Shown here: piece after piece, positions 20,055 through 28,796 of the stretch
Position numbering within the stretch: the first letter of the stretch is position 1
How the letters are laid out: each line of letters opens with the position of its first letter
From: an uncultured Oscillospiraceae bacterium
GTDB lineage: Bacteria; Bacillota; Clostridia; Oscillospirales; Oscillospiraceae
DNA: 52,841 nucleotides
NCBI GenBank assembly: GCA_949935795.1
Contig: CATLFX010000014.1
Location: 1 to 52,841, forward strand
Direction of reading: 5' to 3'
Position numbers and translations under genes: made by a program
The notes under the pieces: model-generated
Told to the model about the DNA's origin: nothing
What the model saw: the letters and a program-made list of their open reading frames with translations, nothing else
Database searches by the model: none

Positions 20055-20891
20055 TTACATGCAGCAGTTCTTGGTCTCCTGATACCCCTCCGGCGGAGTG
20101 ATGGTGTTGGGGGGGAAGAACTCCTCCATGGGGAACTGCACCTGACGGAAGATGGCGCAGGGGTCCTCCTGAGCGCCTCCGCCGGCGGTGCACTCCTTGC
20201 TGGGCATGCAGTAGTCGTAGGCGGGGATGAGCAGCTGGCTGTCCCGCTCCAGCCGGATGATGGAGAACTGGCCCAGGGTGACGTACACCCTCCGGCCCTC
20301 GCCCCCCATATTCAGCTCGCCGGGGAAGCATCCGGCGATGCCCGCGGGCACATCCGCCCCGTCGCCGCAGGCGCAGGACGGCGGCTCGCAGGGGTCGGAC
20401 AGGCGCATGCTCAGGATGATGGGGTCTACGGAGTTCACCACCGCGATAGGCAGGTTGGTGCTCATCAGGTTCTGCTCGTCCAGGTCGTCCACCCGGCTGT
20501 TGGAGGAGAACACCTTGGCGCTGCCCTCGCTGCCGAACAGGATGGCCCGCTTGTCGAACACCGCCAGGCCGCAGATGGACACCGGCCGGGCGGCGCCCAC
20601 AAAGGCGTCGGCGGTCACCCGGTAGAAATAGCGCACGTCTACGGTGAAGTAGCCCCGGTTGAAGCCCACGGGCTCCACGTCGATGTAAGCATACAGCAGC
20701 TCGGCCTGGCCGGCCTTTAAACTGATGGCCCGGTCAATGACGGCCTGAGAGCTGACGGTGGGGTAAAGGCGCAGATCTTCGACGCAGTCCTTATCCCGGC
20801 AGGAGTCAAAGATCTTTCGGGTGTGGATGCACACGGCCTCCCGGATACCGGCGGTATCGCAGATCGGGCCCGGCTCGATAAATTCAGCCAT
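20055..20891 (-). CDS. Cys-rich conserved clostridial protein of unknown function
   Basis: A 278-residue protein I cannot assign to a named family. It has no signal peptide or membrane segment. It is cysteine-rich: AVCIHTRKIFDSCRDKDCVEDL near residue 20, DPCEPPSCACGDG near residue 170, DYCMPSKECTAGG near residue 230, and KNCCM at the very end. Much of the middle looks like beta-rich sequence. Terminal CC and scattered Cys pairs recall spore-coat or other cross-linked proteins, but that is a guess. The ATG follows GGGAGGT. It lies 102 bases downstream of the gntR-type gene on the same strand, with a hairpin terminator after it. Confidence 0.75.
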   Translation of the reverse strand: MAEFIEPGPICDTAGIREAVCIHTRKIFDSCRDKDCVEDLRLYPTVSSQAVIDRAISLKAGQAELLYAYIDVEPVGFNRGYFTVDVRYFYRVTADAFVGAARPVSICGLAVFDKRAILFGSEGSAKVFSSNSRVDDLDEQNLMSTNLPIAVVNSVDPIILSMRLSDPCEPPSCACGDGADVPAGIAGCFPGELNMGGEGRRVYVTLGQFSIIRLERDSQLLIPAYDYCMPSKECTAGGGAQEDPCAIFRQVQFPMEEFFPPNTITPPEGYQETKNCCM

Positions 20892-20993
20892 TTTTGTACC
20901 TCCCGATGGTTGATGGGTCGGGGCTGATAGGACGGTCCCCTTCCACCCCCATTGTATGCCGGGGGACAAAACGGGTGAAAAGAGGCTGTGCTG

Positions 20994-21704
20994 TCAGGCC
21001 ATGCCGTAAATCTGCTGGCTGCCGCTGATGGCCTGTTCCAGATATTCGTCAATCCACCGGGCGGCGCCCTCCCGGTCCCGGTTCCGGAGAAGGGCGTACA
21101 GGGTCTGGGTGTTGTGCACCAGGGCGGGGATGCCGTAAAGGCTGCAAAACCGCACCCACAGGGCGATGACCGGAGGCTTGAAGGAGTAGTAGATCAGCGG
21201 GACAATGCTGTTTCCACCCACCAGGGCCAGCTCGTGCTGGAAGGCGAACGCCGCCTCCGCCGCCTCCAGTGGATGGGAGGAGGCGGCCATCCGCTCCAGG
21301 GCCTCCCCCAGCCGCTCCAGCCCCTGGTCGGAGGCGTACAGGATGGCCCGCTCCGCCGCCAGGTGCTCCAGCGCACGGCGCACCTCTAATATGGAGCGGA
21401 TTTCGTCCTTTCCCAGCACCCCTCCCTTATACTGCATGATGGCGATGAGGGTGCTGAGATTTCCCCGGCGGCGGTAGTCGGCCACACAGGTGCCCTGCCG
21501 GGGCCGGACCTCCAAAAAGCCCTGGTCGGACAGCTCGGCCAAACCGCTGTTCACGACGGTGCGGCTCACCTGCATCTGCTCGGCCAGGGTCCGTTCCGGG
21601 GGCAGCTGGGTGCCCACCGGCAGCGCTCCGGAGAGGATCATCCCCTGGAGCTGCTGGACGAACAGGTCCTTCAGGCTGGGGGCGGACAGCTTGGCGAATT
21701 CCAT
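20994..21704 (-). CDS. GntR-family transcriptional regulator, FadR subfamily
   Basis: A 236-residue regulator. The N-terminal winged helix shows the GntR signature VGTQLPPERTLAEQMQVSRT near residue 28 and LSDQGFLEVRPRQGTCV. The rest is an all-helical FCD/FadR-type effector domain (EIRSILEVRRALEHLAAERA; FQHELALVGGNSIVPLIYY). Such domains usually bind carboxylic acids. The ATG has GAGGAGG upstream. It is divergent from the hypB operon, and an FadR-type palindrome sits at the hypB transcription start, so hypB-oxidoreductase-hypA-membrane protein is its likely target. Confidence 0.9.
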   Translation of the reverse strand: MEFAKLSAPSLKDLFVQQLQGMILSGALPVGTQLPPERTLAEQMQVSRTVVNSGLAELSDQGFLEVRPRQGTCVADYRRRGNLSTLIAIMQYKGGVLGKDEIRSILEVRRALEHLAAERAILYASDQGLERLGEALERMAASSHPLEAAEAAFAFQHELALVGGNSIVPLIYYSFKPPVIALWVRFCSLYGIPALVHNTQTLYALLRNRDREGAARWIDEYLEQAISGSQQIYGMA

Positions 21705-21724
21705 GACAATTCCTCCTCTGGTTC

Positions 21725-21735
21725 TGGCCATACCA
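21725..21735. promoter_or_regulatory. Degenerate FadR-type half palindrome before the gntR gene
   Basis: TGGCCATACCA differs at one defined position from the FadR-subfamily consensus TNGTNNNACNA. It lies between the gntR start codon and the middle of the divergent region, where an autoregulatory site would be expected. A wider TGGT-N9-ACCA dyad covers the same bases. Weak by itself. Confidence 0.35.
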
Positions 21736-21829
21736 CATATCACGAGAAGGAGTTTATCATATAAGTTTGACAAAAGCAAGCGGGGAGAACTGTGGATAAA
21801 GCTGAAAATTTGGAAAGATTTTCGGGCGG

Positions 21830-21882
21830 TTGACGCAAAGAGGGGAAAATGGTAAAATTATAACATCACTTGGTTGAACCAG
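21830..21882 (+). promoter_or_regulatory. hypB operon promoter with FadR-type operator
   Basis: TTGACG and TAAAAT are separated by exactly 17 bases. Twelve bases after the -10 box lies TGGTTGAACCA (21871-21881), a perfect five-base dyad around one centre base that matches TNGTNNNACNA. It overlaps the expected transcription start and would let the divergently encoded regulator repress this promoter. Confidence 0.75.
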
Positions 21883-21900
21883 AGAGAGGAGAGGATTTTT

Positions 21901-22578
21901 ATGGATCAGGTCCGAGTCATCGAGGTGAAGCAAAGTGTTTTCGCCGACAACGACAGGCGGGCGGCACAGCTGCGCCGGGAGCTGAAGGAGCGGGGGATTT
22001 TTCTGCTCAACCTGATGAGCTCCCCCGGCGCGGGTAAGACCACCACGCTGAAGCGCACGGCAGAGCTGTTGAAGGACGAGATCAAAATCGGCGTCATGGA
22101 GGCGGACATCGACTCCGACGTGGACGCCCGGGCCATGGCGGAGGCGGGTGTGAGGTCCATCCAGCTCCACACCGGCGGCATGTGCCACCTGGATGCCGAC
22201 ATGACCCGTCAAGGGCTGGACGAGCTGCTGACGGAGGGCGGCGTGGAGCTGGCCATTTTGGAGAACGTGGGCAACCTGGTGTGTCCGGCGGAGTTCGACA
22301 CGGGGGCGGTGAAGAACGCCGCCATTCTGTCGGTGCCCGAGGGGGACGACAAGCCGCTGAAATATCCCCTGATGTTCCAGGTGTGCGACGTGGTGCTGAT
22401 TAACAAAATTGACGTGGCCCCTTACTTTGACTTCGACCTGGAGCGGTGCACGGAGTACATCCGCATGCGCAACCCGGACGCCAAAGTCATTCCCATCTGC
22501 GCCAAGACCGGCGAGGGTGTGGAGGAGTGGGCCAACTGGCTGCGGGGGCAAGTACGCGGCTGGCGTTCTTTTTCTTGA
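21901..22578 (+). CDS. hypB: HypB-type nickel-insertion GTPase
   Basis: A 225-residue SIMIBI-class GTPase. The P-loop is SSPGAGKTTTLK near residue 41. HypB metal-site residues are kept: Cys-His in HTGGMCHLDADM near residue 98 and the Cys in ENVGNLVCPAEFD near residue 130. NKIDV is the guanine-specificity motif. The N-terminal CxxCGC high-affinity nickel site of some HypB proteins is absent. HypB normally delivers nickel to [NiFe] hydrogenase with HypA, which is encoded two genes downstream. No hydrogenase and no hypCDEF are in the window. The last residues (SFS) and TGA come from a dispersed repeat hairpin. Confidence 0.92.
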   Translation: MDQVRVIEVKQSVFADNDRRAAQLRRELKERGIFLLNLMSSPGAGKTTTLKRTAELLKDEIKIGVMEADIDSDVDARAMAEAGVRSIQLHTGGMCHLDADMTRQGLDELLTEGGVELAILENVGNLVCPAEFDTGAVKNAAILSVPEGDDKPLKYPLMFQVCDVVLINKIDVAPYFDFDLERCTEYIRMRNPDAKVIPICAKTGEGVEEWANWLRGQVRGWRSFS

Positions 22579-22605
22579 AAGAAAAAGAACCAAAAAGAAC
22601 TTTTA
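22565..22605 (+). repeat. Dispersed hairpin repeat, copy B
   Basis: GTTCTTTTTCTT pairs perfectly over 12 bp with AAGAAAAAGAAC around a GA loop; TGA spanning the loop is the hypB stop codon. CCAAAAAGAACTTTTAG follows, as in the other copies. The second GCGAAAC hairpin seen in copies A and C is not evident here. Confidence 0.85.
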
Positions 22606-22669
22606 GTCCGCTACGAGATCGGTGCGTTGACCACCGTTTTCCGCACGACAACGAGAGAGGAGAAAGAAT

Positions 22670-25465
22670 ATGGGTAAAACCAATTTTCCCCTGGACGAGA
22701 GCAAGCTGCCCTTTGAAATCCCCAAAACAGACCAGCCCCGGGAGAAGATCGTCAAGCTGGGCAAGATGATCACCGACCGGGTGCCAGCCAAGCTCCACGG
22801 AGTCACCGGGGAGGACCCGGAGTACTGGGGGCTGGCCGGGCTGGTCACCGACGAGATGGCCGACGTGGCCATGAAGATGAAGGTGCGCAAACCCAAAACC
22901 TTTGAACAGATTCAGAAGCTCACCGGCATGGAGCCGGAAAAGCTGCAAAAGGTGCTGGATGAGATGAGCCTCATCGGCCTCATCGAGTACCACTGGGAAA
23001 ACCTGGACGGCAAAAACCCCAACCATGAGAAGCGGTATGTCCTGCCCATGTTCGTGCCGGGCAGCGCCGAGTTCTTCAACATGCGCCGGGCCCAGATCGA
23101 CGAGCACCCCGAGGTGGCCGCCTTCTTCGAGCGGATGACCTTCCTGCCCCTGGAGAAGATTACCCCCATGGTGCCTCCCGGCGGGGCGGGCATCGGCATG
23201 CACGTCATCCCGGTGGAGCAGGCCATCGGCATGGAGAGCAAGTCCATCTCCATTGAGCACATCTCCCACTGGCTGGACAAGTACGAGGGCAAGTACGCCG
23301 CCTCTCCCTGCTCCTGCCGGATGAGCCGGGCCAAGCTGGGGGAGGGCTGCGGCGACGACGCCGACGACTGGTGCGTCGCCGTGGGCGATATGGCGGATTA
23401 CGTGGTGGAGACCGACAAGGGGGGCCGCTACATCACCAAGGAGGAGGCCCTGGAGATCTTCCGCAAGGCGGAGGCCAACGGCTATGTTCACCAGATCACC
23501 AACATTGACGGCGAGGAGAAGATTTTCGCCATCTGCAACTGCAACGTGAACGTCTGCAACGCCCTGCGCACCTCCCAGCTGTTCAACACCCCCAACATGA
23601 GCCGGTCGGCCTATGTGGCCAAGGTGGAGCAGGACAAGTGCGTGGCCTGCGGCGGCTGTGTGGAGGTGTGCCCCGCCGGGGCGGCCAAGCTGGGTCAGAA
23701 GCTGTGCGCCAAGGACGGCGCGCCCATCCAGTATCCCCGGCAGGAGCTGCCCGACGAGGTGAAGTGGGGCCCGGAGAAGTGGTCCATCGACTACCGTGAC
23801 AAGAATCGGATCAACACCCACGAGACGGGCACCGCCCCCTGCAAGACCGCCTGTCCCGCCCACATCGCGGTGCAGGGCTATCTCAAGCTGGCGGCCCAGG
23901 GCAGGTACACCGAGGCCCTGGAGCTCATCAAGAAGGAAAACCCCTTCCCGGCGGTGTGCGGCCGGGTGTGCAACCGCCGGTGCGAGGAGGCGTGCACCCG
24001 GGGGACCATCGACCAGGCCGTGGCCATCGACGAGGTGAAGAAGTTCATCGCCCAGCAGGATCTGAACGCAGAGCACCGCTTTGTGCCGGAAAAGGTGATT
24101 CCCAAGGTGGAGGGGACCTTCTCCCAGAAGATCGCCATCATTGGCGGCGGCCCGGCGGGGCTGTCCTGCGCCTTCTATCTCGCTCTTAAAGGCTATGAGC
24201 CCACCGTGTTTGAGAAAAACAAGGAGCTGGGCGGGATGCTCCGTTACGGCATTCCCTCCTTTAAATTAGAGAAGGACGTGATCGACGCTGAAATCGACGT
24301 GATCCGGGCCCTGGGGGTGGACTTCCGCTGCGGCGTGGAGGTCGGCAAGGACCTGACCCTGGACGATCTGCGGGCCCAGGGCTACGAGGCGTTCTACATC
24401 GCCATCGGCTGCCAGCGGGGCCGCCTGCCCGGCATACCCGGCGAGTCCTCCCAGGGCGTGTGGTCCGCCGTGGAGTTCCTGCGTGAGGCCCTGGCGGACG
24501 AAAGTCTGAAGGCTCCCGGCAAGACCGTGGTAGTGGGCGGCGGCAACGTGGCCATCGACGCGGCGCGGACGGCCCACCGCTGCGGGGCGGACAGCGTCCA
24601 GATGTACTGTCTGGAGCCCCGGGACAAAATGCCCGCCTCCCTGGAGGAGATCGCCGAGGCGGAGGACGAGGACATTACCATTCACTGCGGCTGGGGCCCG
24701 AAAGAGGTGCTTACCGAAAACGGGAAGGTATCCGGCGTGGTGTTCATGCGCTGCACCAGTGTGTGGGACGATCAGGGCCGCTTCGCCCCCCAGTACGATG
24801 AGCAGGACACCGTCACCGTCCCCTGCGACCACGTGGTGCTGTCCATCGGCCAGAGCGTGGAGTGGGGCGAGCTGCTGGAGGGCAGCAAGGTGGAGCTGGC
24901 CCGGGGCGGCTGGGCCCGTGCCGATGCCAAGACCTACCAAACCGCCCAGCCCGACATATTTGTGGGCGGCGACGTGTATACCGGCCCCAAATTCGCCATC
25001 GACGCCATCGCGGCGGGCAAAGAGGCGGCGGTATCCCTCCACCGCTTCGTCCAGCCGGATACCAGCATGACTATCGGCCGGGACCCCCGGTACTTCGTGG
25101 AGCTGGACAAAAACAACATCAAGGTGGAGCAGTACGACACGGCCTCCCGTCAGATTCCCGGCATGGACGGCAGCTTCGACTGGAAAAAGTCCTTCCGGGA
25201 TGCCAAGCGCACCTTCACCGAGGAGCAGGTCAAGGCGGAGACCGCCCGGTGCCTGGGCTGCGGCGCGTCCATTGTGGACCCCAACAAGTGCATCGGATGC
25301 GGGCTGTGCACCACCCGCTGTGAGTTCGACGCCATCCACCTCCACCGGGAGCGGCCCGAGTGCTCCACCATGATCAAGAGCGAGGACAAGATGAAGGCCA
25401 TCCTGCCCAACATGATCAAGCGGGAGATCAAGATCAAGCGGGCCGCCAAAAAGAACAGGAAATAG
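22670..25465 (+). CDS. Multi-domain FAD/NAD(P) and iron-sulfur oxidoreductase (GltD/NfnB-like core)
   Basis: A 931-residue soluble protein. Residues about 45 to 130 look like a winged-helix segment. Cys-rich sites follow (CSC at 214-216, C227, C235, CNCNVNVC at 289-296). A ferredoxin motif uses C324, C327, C330, C334. The GltD-type iron-sulfur domain has C391, C395, C430, C434, C438, C442. FAD binds at IGGGPAGLSC near 491 and NAD(P) at VVGGGNVAIDAAR near 621. A second ferredoxin-like region has C861, C864, C874, C877, C880, C884. It probably moves electrons between NAD(P)H and iron-sulfur partners; substrate unknown. It sits between hypB and hypA, which is unusual. Confidence 0.85.
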   Translation: MGKTNFPLDESKLPFEIPKTDQPREKIVKLGKMITDRVPAKLHGVTGEDPEYWGLAGLVTDEMADVAMKMKVRKPKTFEQIQKLTGMEPEKLQKVLDEMSLIGLIEYHWENLDGKNPNHEKRYVLPMFVPGSAEFFNMRRAQIDEHPEVAAFFERMTFLPLEKITPMVPPGGAGIGMHVIPVEQAIGMESKSISIEHISHWLDKYEGKYAASPCSCRMSRAKLGEGCGDDADDWCVAVGDMADYVVETDKGGRYITKEEALEIFRKAEANGYVHQITNIDGEEKIFAICNCNVNVCNALRTSQLFNTPNMSRSAYVAKVEQDKCVACGGCVEVCPAGAAKLGQKLCAKDGAPIQYPRQELPDEVKWGPEKWSIDYRDKNRINTHETGTAPCKTACPAHIAVQGYLKLAAQGRYTEALELIKKENPFPAVCGRVCNRRCEEACTRGTIDQAVAIDEVKKFIAQQDLNAEHRFVPEKVIPKVEGTFSQKIAIIGGGPAGLSCAFYLALKGYEPTVFEKNKELGGMLRYGIPSFKLEKDVIDAEIDVIRALGVDFRCGVEVGKDLTLDDLRAQGYEAFYIAIGCQRGRLPGIPGESSQGVWSAVEFLREALADESLKAPGKTVVVGGGNVAIDAARTAHRCGADSVQMYCLEPRDKMPASLEEIAEAEDEDITIHCGWGPKEVLTENGKVSGVVFMRCTSVWDDQGRFAPQYDEQDTVTVPCDHVVLSIGQSVEWGELLEGSKVELARGGWARADAKTYQTAQPDIFVGGDVYTGPKFAIDAIAAGKEAAVSLHRFVQPDTSMTIGRDPRYFVELDKNNIKVEQYDTASRQIPGMDGSFDWKKSFRDAKRTFTEEQVKAETARCLGCGASIVDPNKCIGCGLCTTRCEFDAIHLHRERPECSTMIKSEDKMKAILPNMIKREIKIKRAAKKNRK

Positions 25466-25468
25466 GCC

Positions 25469-25813
25469 ATGCACGAACTGGGCATTGTGTTCCACATCAT
25501 CCGCAGTGTGGAACAGGTGGCGGCGGAGAACAACCTGGAAAAGGTGTCCGCCGTGGTGCTGGAGCTGGGGGAGGTGTCCGGCGTGGTGCCGGACTACCTC
25601 ACCGACTGCTGGAGGTGGGCGGCGGCGAAGGAGGAACTGGTCAGCGGCTCGGAGCTGAAAATTGAGACCCTGCCCGCCGTCACACACTGTGATGGCTGCG
25701 GGCGGGATTACCCCACCGTGGCCCACGGCCGGACCTGCCCCCACTGCCGGAGTGAAAAAACCTGGCTGCTGACGGGAAACGAGGTGAGCATCAAAGAGAT
25801 CGAGGCATATTGA
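25469..25813 (+). CDS. hypA: HypA-type nickel metallochaperone
   Basis: A 114-residue HypA protein. The N-terminal MHELGI contains His2, the nickel ligand, and CDGCGRDY plus CPHCRSEK form the structural zinc site (two CxxC pairs, residues about 73 to 93). HypA hands nickel to hydrogenase large subunits together with HypB. It begins three bases after the oxidoreductase stop, so it belongs to the same transcript, yet no nickel enzyme is encoded nearby. Confidence 0.93.
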   Translation: MHELGIVFHIIRSVEQVAAENNLEKVSAVVLELGEVSGVVPDYLTDCWRWAAAKEELVSGSELKIETLPAVTHCDGCGRDYPTVAHGRTCPHCRSEKTWLLTGNEVSIKEIEAY

Positions 25814-25873
25814 CCACATTCAGAAACATCAAAGAGAGAGAATGGGGCGAAGCCCCAAAAGGAGGACAAAGCA

Positions 25874-26917
25874 ATGTTATTTCAAGTCTATGGCGACGGC
25901 GCCGGTTGGCAGCTGCTGGGCTGGCTGCTGGTATTCACGGGGCTGATCCTGGCCAATGAGTTCGCCCGCCGCAGCAAGCTGGGCGGCATCATCTGTTTCC
26001 TGGGCATCCCGGCGGTGCTCACCGTGTATTTCATCGCCATCTACGTCTGCGCCGGAATGGGCATGGAGTGGGCGCTGAACAACCAGACCTACGTCCACAT
26101 GGGCAGCTGGTTCCACTACGCCAAGCTGTACGCCGCCACGGCGGGCTGTATCGGCTTCATGATGCTCAAATATAAGTGGAGCATCGGCAGCACCCAGTGG
26201 TTCAAGTGCTTCCCCTTCGTCATCGTGGCCATCAACATCATGATCGCCGTGGTCAGCGATTTCGAGTCCGGCGTGAAGGGCCTCATGTCCCTGGCCCAGA
26301 ACGGCGACCGCTGGTGGCTGTCCAGCGAGAACGTGTGGCTGTACGGCGGCTGGTGGAACTGGGTCAACGGCATCGCGGGCATCCTCAACATCCTGTGCAT
26401 GACGGGCTGGTGGGGCATTTACACCTCCAAGAAAAAGGACGACATGCTCTGGCCGGACATGACCTTCCTGTACATCCTGGCCTACGACGTGTGGAATTTT
26501 GAGTACACCTACAACAACCTGCCCACCCACGCCTGGTACTGCGGCCTGGCCCTCCTGCTGGCCCCCACCTTCGCCAATGCCCTGTGGAACAAGGGCGGCT
26601 GGATTCAGAACCGGGCCAACACCCTGGCCCTGTGGTGCATGTTTGCCCAGGTGTTCCCCCTCTTCCAGGACGCCAGCCGGTTCACCGTCATCCCCGTGCT
26701 GTACGCCGACGGCGCGATGAACGCCGCGGTCCGTCCCACCGCCGCCGACCCCACCATGCAGGGCGTGGTGGCGGTGCTGGCCCTGGCCGTCAACGTGGTG
26801 GTGCTGGGCATCATCATCAAGCGCTCCATCGAGCAGAAAAAGAACCCCTACAAAAACGAGATATTCACCGACCAGCGGGACTTCCAGCTGGCCATGGCCC
26901 GGGCGGAGGGCAAGTGA
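25874..26917 (+). CDS. Multipass membrane protein of unknown function (possibly DUF5692)
   Basis: A 347-residue integral membrane protein with about nine hydrophobic segments (for example WQLLGWLLVFTGLILANEFA, GIICFLGIPAVLTVYFIAIY, WFKCFPFVIVAINIMIAVV, GVVAVLALAVNVVVLGIIIK). It is rich in Trp and aromatic residues and ends in a charged cytoplasmic-looking tail. I believe it resembles the DUF5692 family but cannot confirm this. It has GGAGG before its ATG, lies 60 bases after hypA and is followed by a strong terminator, so it is the last gene of the hypB operon. A transport or electron-transfer role with the oxidoreductase is speculation. Confidence 0.8.
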   Translation: MLFQVYGDGAGWQLLGWLLVFTGLILANEFARRSKLGGIICFLGIPAVLTVYFIAIYVCAGMGMEWALNNQTYVHMGSWFHYAKLYAATAGCIGFMMLKYKWSIGSTQWFKCFPFVIVAINIMIAVVSDFESGVKGLMSLAQNGDRWWLSSENVWLYGGWWNWVNGIAGILNILCMTGWWGIYTSKKKDDMLWPDMTFLYILAYDVWNFEYTYNNLPTHAWYCGLALLLAPTFANALWNKGGWIQNRANTLALWCMFAQVFPLFQDASRFTVIPVLYADGAMNAAVRPTAADPTMQGVVAVLALAVNVVVLGIIIKRSIEQKKNPYKNEIFTDQRDFQLAMARAEGK

Positions 26918-26953
26918 CCCGCCCACCGTTAAAACGGAATTATCCCGAAAACC

Positions 26954-26993
26954 GTCAACCTGCGGAGGCTCCTCCGCAGGTTGACGCTGTTTT
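26954..26993 (+). terminator. Terminator of the hypB operon
   Basis: GTCAACCTGCGGAGG and CCTCCGCAGGTTGAC pair perfectly over 15 bp around CT, followed by GCTGTTTT. Very stable. Confidence 0.85.
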
Positions 26994-27026
26994 CCCCCCG
27001 CTTAGCCCCGCTTAGACATGATTTCC

Positions 27027-27055
27027 TGGACAAGGCCGGACCTGCTGTGATATAA
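27027..27055 (+). promoter_or_regulatory. Promoter of the alpha/beta hydrolase gene
   Basis: TGGACA and a perfect TATAAT lie 17 bases apart, about 50 bases before the start codon. Confidence 0.75.
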
Positions 27056-27105
27056 TTCAATCTCCGCGCACGATGCGGAAACATCAACCCAAAGGTCGTG
27101 ATGGC

Positions 27106-28059
27106 ATGAAAGAATCCGTCAAAAAACGCCGCGGAGGGCAGATCGCCCTCATTGTGTTGGCCGTCCTGCTGGTGCTCATCGCGGGCGCGCTGACCCTCGC
27201 CGGGAATTACTTATTTAACTTTGCCCTGGACCCCCAGACCGGCGGCATGTTCCACAGTTATGAGGAGGACGAGTGGGAGCTGACAGACAAAATGGTCTGG
27301 CTCGCCGAGAACGCCGAGGACCGCTGGCTCACCAGCCACGACGGGCTGGCCCTCCACGCCCTGTACCTGCCTCGGCCAGAGCCCAGCCACAAATACGCCG
27401 TCATCTGCCATGGCTACGGCGGCATCCCCCAGGGGATGGGCGGCTTCGCCTCCCACTTCTATGACATGGGCTGCAACATCCTGACCCCCGCCGCCCGGTG
27501 CCATGAGCTCAGCCAGGGCCGCTACGCCAGCATGGGCTGGCTGGAGCGGGAGGATATCGTGGACTGGGTGGACGCCCTGGTGGAACAGGACCGGTCGGCG
27601 GAGATTATCCTGTTCGGCGTCTCCATGGGCGGGGCCACGGTGATGATGACCGCCGGGGAGGCCGGTTTGTCCCCCAATGTGAAGTGCATCATTGAGGACT
27701 GCGGCTATTCCTCCGTGTGGGACGAGTTCGCGGGCCAGCTTGAGGAAATGTTTGGCCTGCCCACCTTTCCGGTGCTGGATGCGGCCTCCCTGGTGTGTCA
27801 GGTCCGGGCGGGATTTGGTTTCAAGGAGGCGTCCTCGGTGGAGTCGCTGAGAAAGACCTCCGTCCCCATGCTCTTCATCCACGGGGAGGACGACACCTTT
27901 GTGCCCTACTGGATGCTGGACGTGGTGTATGAAGCCTGTGCCAGCAGGTCAAAGGAGCGGCTTTCCATCCCCGGCGCGGGCCACGGCGAGGCGGCCGCGA
28001 CGGACCCGGAGCTGTACTGGTCCACCGTGGAGGGATTTCTGGCGAAGCATATGGGGTAG
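27106..28059 (+). CDS. Membrane-anchored alpha/beta hydrolase
   Basis: A 317-residue protein with a basic start and one N-terminal membrane segment (IALIVLAVLLVLIAGALTLA), then an extracellular alpha/beta-hydrolase domain. The nucleophile elbow is LFGVSMGGATVMMTA, the acid probably HGEDDTFVPYW, and the base GAGHGEAA. It resembles the peptidase S9/BAAT-like hydrolases of Firmicutes such as YqkD; the substrate cannot be told. The ATG after AAAGG was chosen over an upstream in-frame ATG that has no ribosome binding site. It is monocistronic between its own promoter and a bidirectional terminator. Confidence 0.88.
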   Translation: MKESVKKRRGGQIALIVLAVLLVLIAGALTLAGNYLFNFALDPQTGGMFHSYEEDEWELTDKMVWLAENAEDRWLTSHDGLALHALYLPRPEPSHKYAVICHGYGGIPQGMGGFASHFYDMGCNILTPAARCHELSQGRYASMGWLEREDIVDWVDALVEQDRSAEIILFGVSMGGATVMMTAGEAGLSPNVKCIIEDCGYSSVWDEFAGQLEEMFGLPTFPVLDAASLVCQVRAGFGFKEASSVESLRKTSVPMLFIHGEDDTFVPYWMLDVVYEACASRSKERLSIPGAGHGEAAATDPELYWSTVEGFLAKHMG

Positions 28060-28065
28060 ACCATA

Positions 28066-28101
28066 AAAACACGGCGGAGAGGTGATCTCCGCCGTGTTTT
28101 T
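28066..28101. terminator. Bidirectional terminator
   Basis: AAAACACGGCGGAGA and TCTCCGCCGTGTTTT pair perfectly; A and T runs on the two sides make it work on both strands. It separates the hydrolase from the convergent membrane protein gene. Confidence 0.88.
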
Positions 28102-28103
28102 GC

Positions 28104-28477
28104 CTACAGGTCCTCAATTTTGATTTTCTCCATCTGACGGGCCGCCCTGCGCCGCAGTAACATCCGGCACAGTCCATAAACCATCAGCAGTACCAGGGTC
28201 AGGACGTTTTCCAGCGCAAAGGCAATGGCCAGCAGGCGGCCCCACTCACCCAGTGCGGCAAGCCCCCCAGGCCAGCGAGGCGCAGGATGAAGGTGCCCAG
28301 AGTCCACAGCAGCCACGCGCCGGGGAGGATCAGCCCCAGCCGCCGGTCCTGCTTCAGGGCCAGAAATGCCTCCACTGCCACCGCTGCCACGGCGAGAGCC
28401 AAAATAACGGGGACCTCCCGCCCTTCTATAATAAATAGATCGGCGCCGGGCTCGAAATGAAATCCGGTCTGAAACAT
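28104..28477 (-). pseudogene. Small membrane protein gene interrupted by a frameshift at a G6 run
   Basis: From ATG the frame reads MFQTGFHFEPGADLFIIEGR, two hydrophobic segments (VPVILALAVAAVAVEAFLAL; LGLILPGAWLLWTLGTFIL) and then loses its character after LRLAGLGGL. Another frame carries on convincingly with AALGEWGRLLAIAFALENVL, a further membrane segment and the basic tail RRRAARQMEKIKIEDL. The switch falls at six G (28263-28268 on this strand's complement). Seven G would restore a single protein of about 124 residues. It may be a sequencing error, a phase-variable tract or a real pseudogene. It begins two bases after the DUF2089-like gene, so the two form an operon. Confidence 0.75.
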
Positions 28478-28479
28478 CG

Positions 28480-28770
28480 TTATGCCTCCTTTGCCTTTCG
28501 GTACTCACTGATGAGCAGCTTGGCGGTGTCGAAATCCAACTTGTCCTCCACCGCCAGCCGTTTCACCAGAGCCACATAGGGGTCCGCACCCGCTTCCTCG
28601 CTGAGCTGAATTTTTTGAATCAGCCGGTCCAGCCGCAGGCGAACGGTGGGGTAGCTGACGCCGTACTGTCCCGCCATCTCCTTCAATGAGCCGGAGGCCA
28701 GCACAAAGCGTTTGATAAAGGCCGCGTCCTCGTCCTCAAGGCCGGTCATCCAGATGGGAAGGGCGTCCAT
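28480..28770 (-). CDS. DUF2089-like small HTH protein
   Basis: A 96-residue protein. DEDAAFIKRFVLASGSLKEM followed by AGQYGVSYPTVRLRLDRLIQ is the DUF2089 pattern, with a helix-turn-helix-like segment at about residues 25 to 55. Such proteins usually sit next to a small membrane protein, as here, and are thought to regulate it. ATG was preferred over two in-frame GTGs that overlap the AGGTGG ribosome binding site. Confidence 0.85.
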   Translation of the reverse strand: MDALPIWMTGLEDEDAAFIKRFVLASGSLKEMAGQYGVSYPTVRLRLDRLIQKIQLSEEAGADPYVALVKRLAVEDKLDFDTAKLLISEYRKAKEA

Positions 28771-28796
28771 TTTCACCACCTACTTTCATATTATTT

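Follow-up and report, generated by a model that had tools for sequence, protein, structure and literature searches.

The closest described relatives of the operon considered here are large oxidoreductases reported by Kronen et al. 2023 (PMC10134865). In Acetobacterium wieringae the oxidoreductase IsrA, a putative isoprene reductase, was found by proteomics to be strongly induced by isoprene together with HypA, HypB and a ferredoxin; IsrA was placed in a 'clade 9' whose homologs are about 900 amino acids (aa) long, and across 988 homologs the co-occurrence was 0.73 for HypA, 0.56 for HypB, 0.40 for DUF5692 and 0.21 for TetR (PMC10134865). The same account has A. wieringae lacking hypCDEF and a [NiFe]-hydrogenase, proposes nickel at a six-cysteine 'cluster V', and extends the idea of C=C hydrogenation to other homologs, which would act on other unfunctionalised bonds, for instance in terpenes. 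In IsrA a 26-residue stretch at 756-782 is also reported as peculiar to the isoprene branch. A cluster of this kind occurs in strains Y and N, where it has been termed a putative diene reductase cluster, and strain N reduces 1,3-butadiene and carries a matching cluster (PMC12509576); in strain Y the oxidoreductase has been named as a candidate (PMC9765523). Here we describe a related operon in a 52,841-nucleotide stretch of DNA from an uncultured Oscillospiraceae bacterium (contig CATLFX010000014.1, assembly GCA_949935795.1); this whole stretch is referred to as the window.

The operon is compact, lies on the + strand at 21901-26917, and consists of hypB, the oxidoreductase gene, hypA and a DUF5692 gene, with gntR transcribed divergently. 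A sequence-only reading of this DNA had described it as hypB, a 931-residue flavin/Fe-S oxidoreductase, hypA and a membrane protein, and profile searches of the window proteins bear this out. Its further suggestion that the system was undescribed does not hold, since PMC10134865 had already reported the class, the linkage and the nickel hypothesis. The operon is of a kind already described: by its sequence it belongs to clade 9 and carries a DUF5692 gene, an arrangement distinct from the isr operon proper. What is added here is a coupling of DUF5692 to the reductase that goes beyond linkage, an operator motif, and the joining of lar genes to the operon. The reading that we favor, with somewhat less than even confidence, is that the operon encodes a reductase which is inducible, depends on nickel and disposes of electrons by reducing an activated C=C bond, while DUF5692 deals with a lipophilic substrate. 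The features are as follows.

20994 to 21704, - strand: GntR/FCD (FadR-type) regulator gene (PF00392, E 7.8e-17; PF07729, E 5.1e-13), with a homolog in 14 of 80 related loci; the open reading frame (ORF) was listed to 21779, and the likely start is the ATG at 21704.
21724 to 21736, + strand: operator-like site beside gntR, CTGGCCATACCAC, which differs by one letter from the counted motif and came up once the pattern was relaxed.
21830 to 21858, + strand: sigma-70-like promoter, TTGACG-N17-TAAAAT, read from the sequence; similar boxes are readable in the intergenic regions of two related loci, L040 and L041.
21870 to 21882, + strand: operator-like site TTGGTTGAACCAG between promoter and hypB, found by motif search.
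21901 to 22578, + strand: hypB, predicted nickel-binding GTPase with a CH + C metal site, likely starting at the ATG at 21901 (TIGR00073, 242.9 bits against an equivalog cut-off of 121.2; C95, H96 and C128 invariant in 51 of 51 aligned rows).
22670 to 25465, + strand: IsrA-type (clade 9) FAD/NAD(P)/Fe-S oxidoreductase, 931 aa, from domain, fold and alignment evidence.
23309 to 23557, + strand: N-terminal cysteine-rich site of the oxidoreductase (C214, C216, C227, C235, C289, C291 and C296, each invariant in 56 of 56 rows of alignment A4).
25469 to 25813, + strand: hypA-like nickel metallochaperone (PF01155, E 1.7e-32; H2, E3 and the four zinc cysteines C74, C77, C90 and C93 invariant in 62 of 62 rows), below the TIGR00100 cut-off.
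25874 to 26917, + strand: DUF5692 polytopic membrane protein, from its PF18948 match, predicted structure and invariant polar residues.

The oxidoreductase resembles IsrA (VUZ27132.1) in its length of about 900 aa, its PF14691 and PF07992 core, its two CxC motifs and its additional [4Fe-4S] sites in the same order, a likeness drawn from the published description and not from sequence identity; in both systems hypA and hypB adjoin the reductase gene and no hydrogenase was found. The isr operon differs in having two hypA genes, a separate ferredoxin and, in the published account, no DUF5692, whereas the window operon has one hypA, DUF5692, a GntR/FCD regulator and no ferredoxin among the flanking genes scanned. 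The oxidoreductase and the membrane protein have already been treated together as a gene neighborhood (PMC10134865), but we found no biochemical characterization of the pair in the open PubMed Central (PMC) literature, a body of text that leaves out most subscription papers and bioRxiv and in which PMC10134865 alone mentions DUF5692.

The membrane protein matches PF18948 (DUF5692) with 466 bits against a gathering score of 27, its AlphaFold model has a mean pLDDT of 91 and nine helices of at least 15 residues, and a set of polar residues (N28, E29, R32, K84, C92, N121, D129, D190, D195, D205, H219 and C223) is invariant, each in 50 of 50 rows. Its association with the reductase was examined in a class-level sample of 147 evenly drawn genomes, for which at least 90% completeness was requested and in which the window's own assembly, 69.7% complete, was included. 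A full-length reductase is present in ten of these (G000, G005, G023, G036, G039, G047, G060, G084, G132 and G136) and DUF5692 in seven (G000, G023, G039, G060, G084, G136 and G095). Six of the seven carry the full-length reductase (hypergeometric P 1.1e-7, genomes being treated as independent), and the seventh match, in G095, is a fragment of 78 positions in a 99-residue frame; DUF5692 occurs rarely if ever without the reductase. The coupling exceeds mere linkage because the two genes lie far apart, judging by contig positions, in G060 (at least about 79 kb) and G136 (at least about 46 kb); in G039 each sits close to a contig end, on two different contigs, so that they may be linked there, and in the other three genomes both are on one contig. 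A family-level sample drawn by way of G047, with two reductase-bearing genomes among ten, was left out of the statistics. Among the window's kin DUF5692 is found in five of 40 genomes including its own, and the other four have the reductase and hypA adjoining; on a reductase tree of 57 rows built with a quick method, linkage to DUF5692 has switched at least nine times. In five Collinsella loci (L042, L046, L059, L102 and L104) DUF5692 is inverted and lies beside a gene that is TetR-like by eye, not GntR.

The nickel theme comes from the two metallochaperones. The sequence-only reading had noted that HypB keeps its metal site, and the alignments agree, for the HypA ligands as well as for HypB; in addition, linkage of hypA and hypB to the reductase recurs across Bacillota and Collinsella. 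Window HypA scores 70.5 bits against TIGR00100, below the hydrogenase-HypA equivalog cut-off of 88.1, although its ligands are kept, and this group may merit a separate family model. The low score, and our finding no nickel measurement on any clade 9 protein in the open PMC literature, favor an account in which HypA and HypB deliver zinc or cobalt, or aid Fe-S assembly, and the reductase is nickel-free. We regard this as distinctly unlikely, given that the MHE site of HypA and the Cys-His-Cys site of HypB are invariant and that larB-larC-larE, another nickel pathway, is joined to the operon in three syntenic loci.

The absence of a hydrogenase, claimed earlier for the window, was examined at the genome level. 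No match to the [NiFe]-hydrogenase large subunit (PF00374) was found in the window's own incomplete assembly, nor in 33 of 47 related reductase-bearing genomes, hypC, D, E and F not having been searched for. In the other 14 of the 47 there is a match, each spanning only about model positions 1-70 and mostly in frames near 365 aa, which we read as probable Ech-type subunits. The operon is mostly found without a [NiFe]-hydrogenase, which supports the earlier reading. Set against hydrogenase maturation as it is known, the window has a HypB above the TIGR00073 cut-off and a PF01155 HypA with the nickel and zinc residues, and differs in the large subunit, of which none was found in this incomplete genome, and in the TIGR00100 score. 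The 14 genomes with PF00374 matches lend something to the idea that the two chaperones serve the maturation of some unrelated nickel enzyme of the cell (an Ech-type hydrogenase, a carbon monoxide dehydrogenase (CODH) or another; CODH and urease were not searched for) and that their location is coincidental, but the genomes with no such match and the recurrence of the linkage in Bacillota and Collinsella make this very improbable.

Some independent support for the nickel theme is provided by lar genes joined to the operon. In three related loci (L099:5821-8687, L103:5686-8568 and L105:5776-8685) larB-larC-larE lies directly upstream of hypB-isrA-hypA-DUF5692 on the same strand, where the lar family models were run on larB, larC and larE of L103 and on larC and larE of L099 and the others were assigned by clustering; the three genomes have no LarA (PF09861) match above cut-off. 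It might be supposed from this that the cofactor of the reductase is the nickel-pincer nucleotide, the product of LarB, LarC and LarE, and it is consistent with this supposition that LarC is present in 38 of the 47 reductase genomes, 23 of the 38 lacking a LarA match with an E value of 1e-30 or below (some LarA match above cut-off is present in 20 of the 47), and that about 15% of genomes are reported to carry larBCE without larA (PMC11796402). The three loci also share genes further upstream, however, and the joining of lar to the operon in them may therefore be one event; moreover, genomes of two loci in the same clade as L099 (L095 and L096) have no LarC match, and in the class-level sample LarC is found in six of ten reductase genomes (G036, G039, G060 and G084 have none) against 63 of 137 others (P 0.52); the combination of LarC with no strong LarA is seen in four of ten against 41 of 137 (P 0.50). 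Because close relatives do without larC and the class sample shows no association, the pincer cofactor is not generally required, and we rejected it as a general cofactor of these reductases; it is the reading to which we give the least credence. In a further locus (L061:948-3738), larE, larB and larC lie about 5-8 kb upstream, and the genome has LarA.

The oxidoreductase itself comprises matches to dihydropyrimidine dehydrogenase (DPD) domain II (PF14691) and an FAD/NAD(P) domain (PF07992), with ferredoxin-type Pfam matches at residues 316-338 and 868-889. Its core is Nfn/GltD-like, as expected for binding FAD, NAD(P) and [4Fe-4S] clusters, and in fold it matches the bifurcating NfnABC and StnABC chains (Protein Data Bank entries 9bov, 8oh5, 9n5u and 9n5v), so that an NfnB-like diaphorase fold is present; the likeness runs over residues 388-887, covers the FAD/NAD(P) domains and the C-terminal cluster region, and amounts to 33-39% identity. 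The differences are that the N-terminal 385 residues with the seven-cysteine site are hardly covered by those chains, and that the window has nickel chaperones. The N-terminal third carries CxC motifs at 214 and 289, and because of these two motifs we take its cysteine site for the counterpart of the Cys6 'cluster V' (PMC10134865); we propose the site as a candidate active-site cluster or nickel site. The protein might instead be an Nfn-like bifurcating transhydrogenase or ferredoxin reductase, its N-terminal clusters acting as a relay only, DUF5692 or another protein being the electron partner, and no organic substrate being reduced by the protein itself. This we consider unlikely, as it leaves the seven invariant cysteines and the nickel chaperones unexplained, as no NfnA-like gene adjoins among the flanking genes scanned (none encodes an NfnA subunit among the eight window proteins scanned, 20055-28779), and as expression of a homolog is substrate-induced (PMC10134865). 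In one genome of the class-level sample (G132, L147:4547-7338) the reductase gene is broken across two frames, reflecting either a sequencing error or a damaged gene.

The regulator had been read as an FadR-type, acid-sensing protein controlling the operon. An FCD-type GntR regulator very probably does control the operon where its gene is present, judging from the operator-like sites. The motif [CT]TGGTNNN[AG]CCA[GAC], derived after inspection of the window and nine of the 14 loci with a GntR homolog, was scanned in the 250 bases before gntR, hypB, isrA and DUF5692 matches. Of the 14 loci 12 contain it, as do two of the 66 others, against 0.1 and 0.41 expected from mononucleotide shuffles. Among the five GntR loci that had not been inspected beforehand it is present in four (L045, L067, L077 and L106) and absent from L052. 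In the window a single site fits the motif exactly and a second departs from it by one letter, and in L040 and L041 CTGGTCATACCAC stands at about the same distance upstream of hypB as in the window. Since TGGTNNNACCA occurs once in the window with 0.67 expected by chance, and so is not rarer than chance, the evidence lies in its recurrence before hypB in related loci. The palindromic CTGGTnnnACCAG presumably resembles the FadR consensus operator, and FCD proteins usually bind carboxylic acids, so that by its family the window regulator may sense an acid. The window regulator shares GntR and FCD domains with E. coli FadR and the GntR-FCD repressors but differs in scoring 40.5 and 42.6 bits, far under the equivalog cut-offs of 249.2 and 189. 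No upstream riboswitch was seen, the window having zero Rfam matches, and the 11 Rfam matches in seven of the related loci (group II introns, tRNAs, SRP, Gut-1 and TwoAYGGAY) include no nickel or cobalt riboswitch.

In the nickel-dependent reductase that we favor, HypB and HypA would load nickel into or beside the N-terminal cysteine site. Electrons would pass from NAD(P)H, and perhaps from ferredoxin by way of an Nfn-like bifurcating FAD, through the cluster chain to that site, where an organic compound with an activated or conjugated C=C bond would be reduced at that bond as an electron sink; DUF5692 would capture, import or chemically prime a lipophilic substrate at the membrane, and the inducing compound would relieve GntR/FCD repression. 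Sequence establishes the genes, their conservation and their co-occurrence; the nickel, the chemistry and the substrate in this scheme we infer. Several observations weigh against it, to which the HypA score given above belongs. Chaperone linkage is not constant, as HypA is missing from the DNA around the locus in eight, and HypB in 14, of the 47 well-flanked loci. DUF5692 is likewise not seen around 13 of these 47, including L038, the nearest relative by N-terminal identity (97%), which has none in its 8.2 kb downstream, and four of the ten class-sample reductase genomes (G005, G036, G047 and G132) have no DUF5692 at all. The evidence that IsrA reduces isoprene is correlative, and other Acetobacterium with 47-49% homologs do not reduce isoprene (PMC10134865); a purified or assayed clade 9 member was not found in the open PMC literature. 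Finally, a conserved catabolic neighbor that would name the substrate was sought and rejected, as no catabolic gene seen in the flanking scan indicates one particular substrate.

That scan covered 135 flanking proteins of 110-620 aa, no more than one being taken from either side of each of the 80 loci, with ORFs chosen heuristically, so that some may not be genes and some true neighbors may have been missed. They matched 131 Pfam families, of which the 25 largest include GntR (13), FCD (13), BD-FAE (6), Abhydrolase_3 esterases (6), LysR (3) and TetR_N (3) and do not include oleate hydratase; NCBIfam gave LarE three times. In some other carriers the neighboring regulator is thus a LysR or TetR-like protein, three each of the 135. 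Where the flanking DNA examined shows no DUF5692, a BD-FAE/Abhydrolase_3-type esterase gene can follow isrA downstream in the same orientation (L107:12501-13496, L116:12351-13370, L117:12389-13378, L094:12649-13659 and L092:15117-16097), as the next gene in four of them and about 2.5 kb away in L092, Pfam having been run on L107 and L092.

A narrower proposal is that DUF5692 operons carry out nickel-dependent biohydrogenation of lipophilic conjugated compounds (polyunsaturated or conjugated fatty acids, terpenoids) in gut and rumen anaerobes, with DUF5692 as a membrane enzyme or port presenting the substrate to the nickel/Fe-S site of the reductase. It is suggested by the coupling of DUF5692 to the reductase, the FadR-like operators, the esterases beside some members with no DUF5692 nearby, and the carriers, which include Butyrivibrio, Pseudobutyrivibrio and Collinsella. 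Butyrivibrio hydrogenates fatty acids. We nevertheless hold this specific form to be rather doubtful.

Individual loci have other neighbors. Beside isrA-hypA-hypB in G036 (L144:11002-14431) are a TetR-type gene, a 2Fe-2S NADH oxidoreductase-like gene and a gene for an FAD protein resembling CrtI; at that locus the substrate may therefore be an isoprenoid or a lipid. In G060 (L136:3999-6954) the genes downstream of hypB-isrA-hypA, in the same orientation, encode a FecBCD/BtuCDF-type ATP-binding cassette (ABC) transporter and its Peripla_BP_2 binding protein, which may import a metal. In L071:12435-13916 (by Pfam) and L101:7985-9454 (by clustering) the gene after isrA, likewise co-oriented, is for a methyl-accepting chemotaxis protein, possibly for chemotaxis to the substrate. 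In the window, the other flanking products among the eight scanned are that of a 304-aa ORF, an alpha/beta hydrolase and a DUF2089 protein; the 304-aa ORF adjoins gntR (20055-20969, - strand), matches neither a Pfam nor an NCBIfam family at E 0.001, and has no counterpart by tblastn among the 80 related loci.

If confirmed, the nickel-dependent reductase would represent a class of nickel enzyme distinct from those known, found widely among anaerobes of the gut and rumen and reducing C=C bonds without an activating group, and it would bear on lipid or terpenoid hydrogenation and on electron sinks in the gut and rumen. The coupling of DUF5692 to the reductase and the operator motif offer two direct experimental handles on this system.

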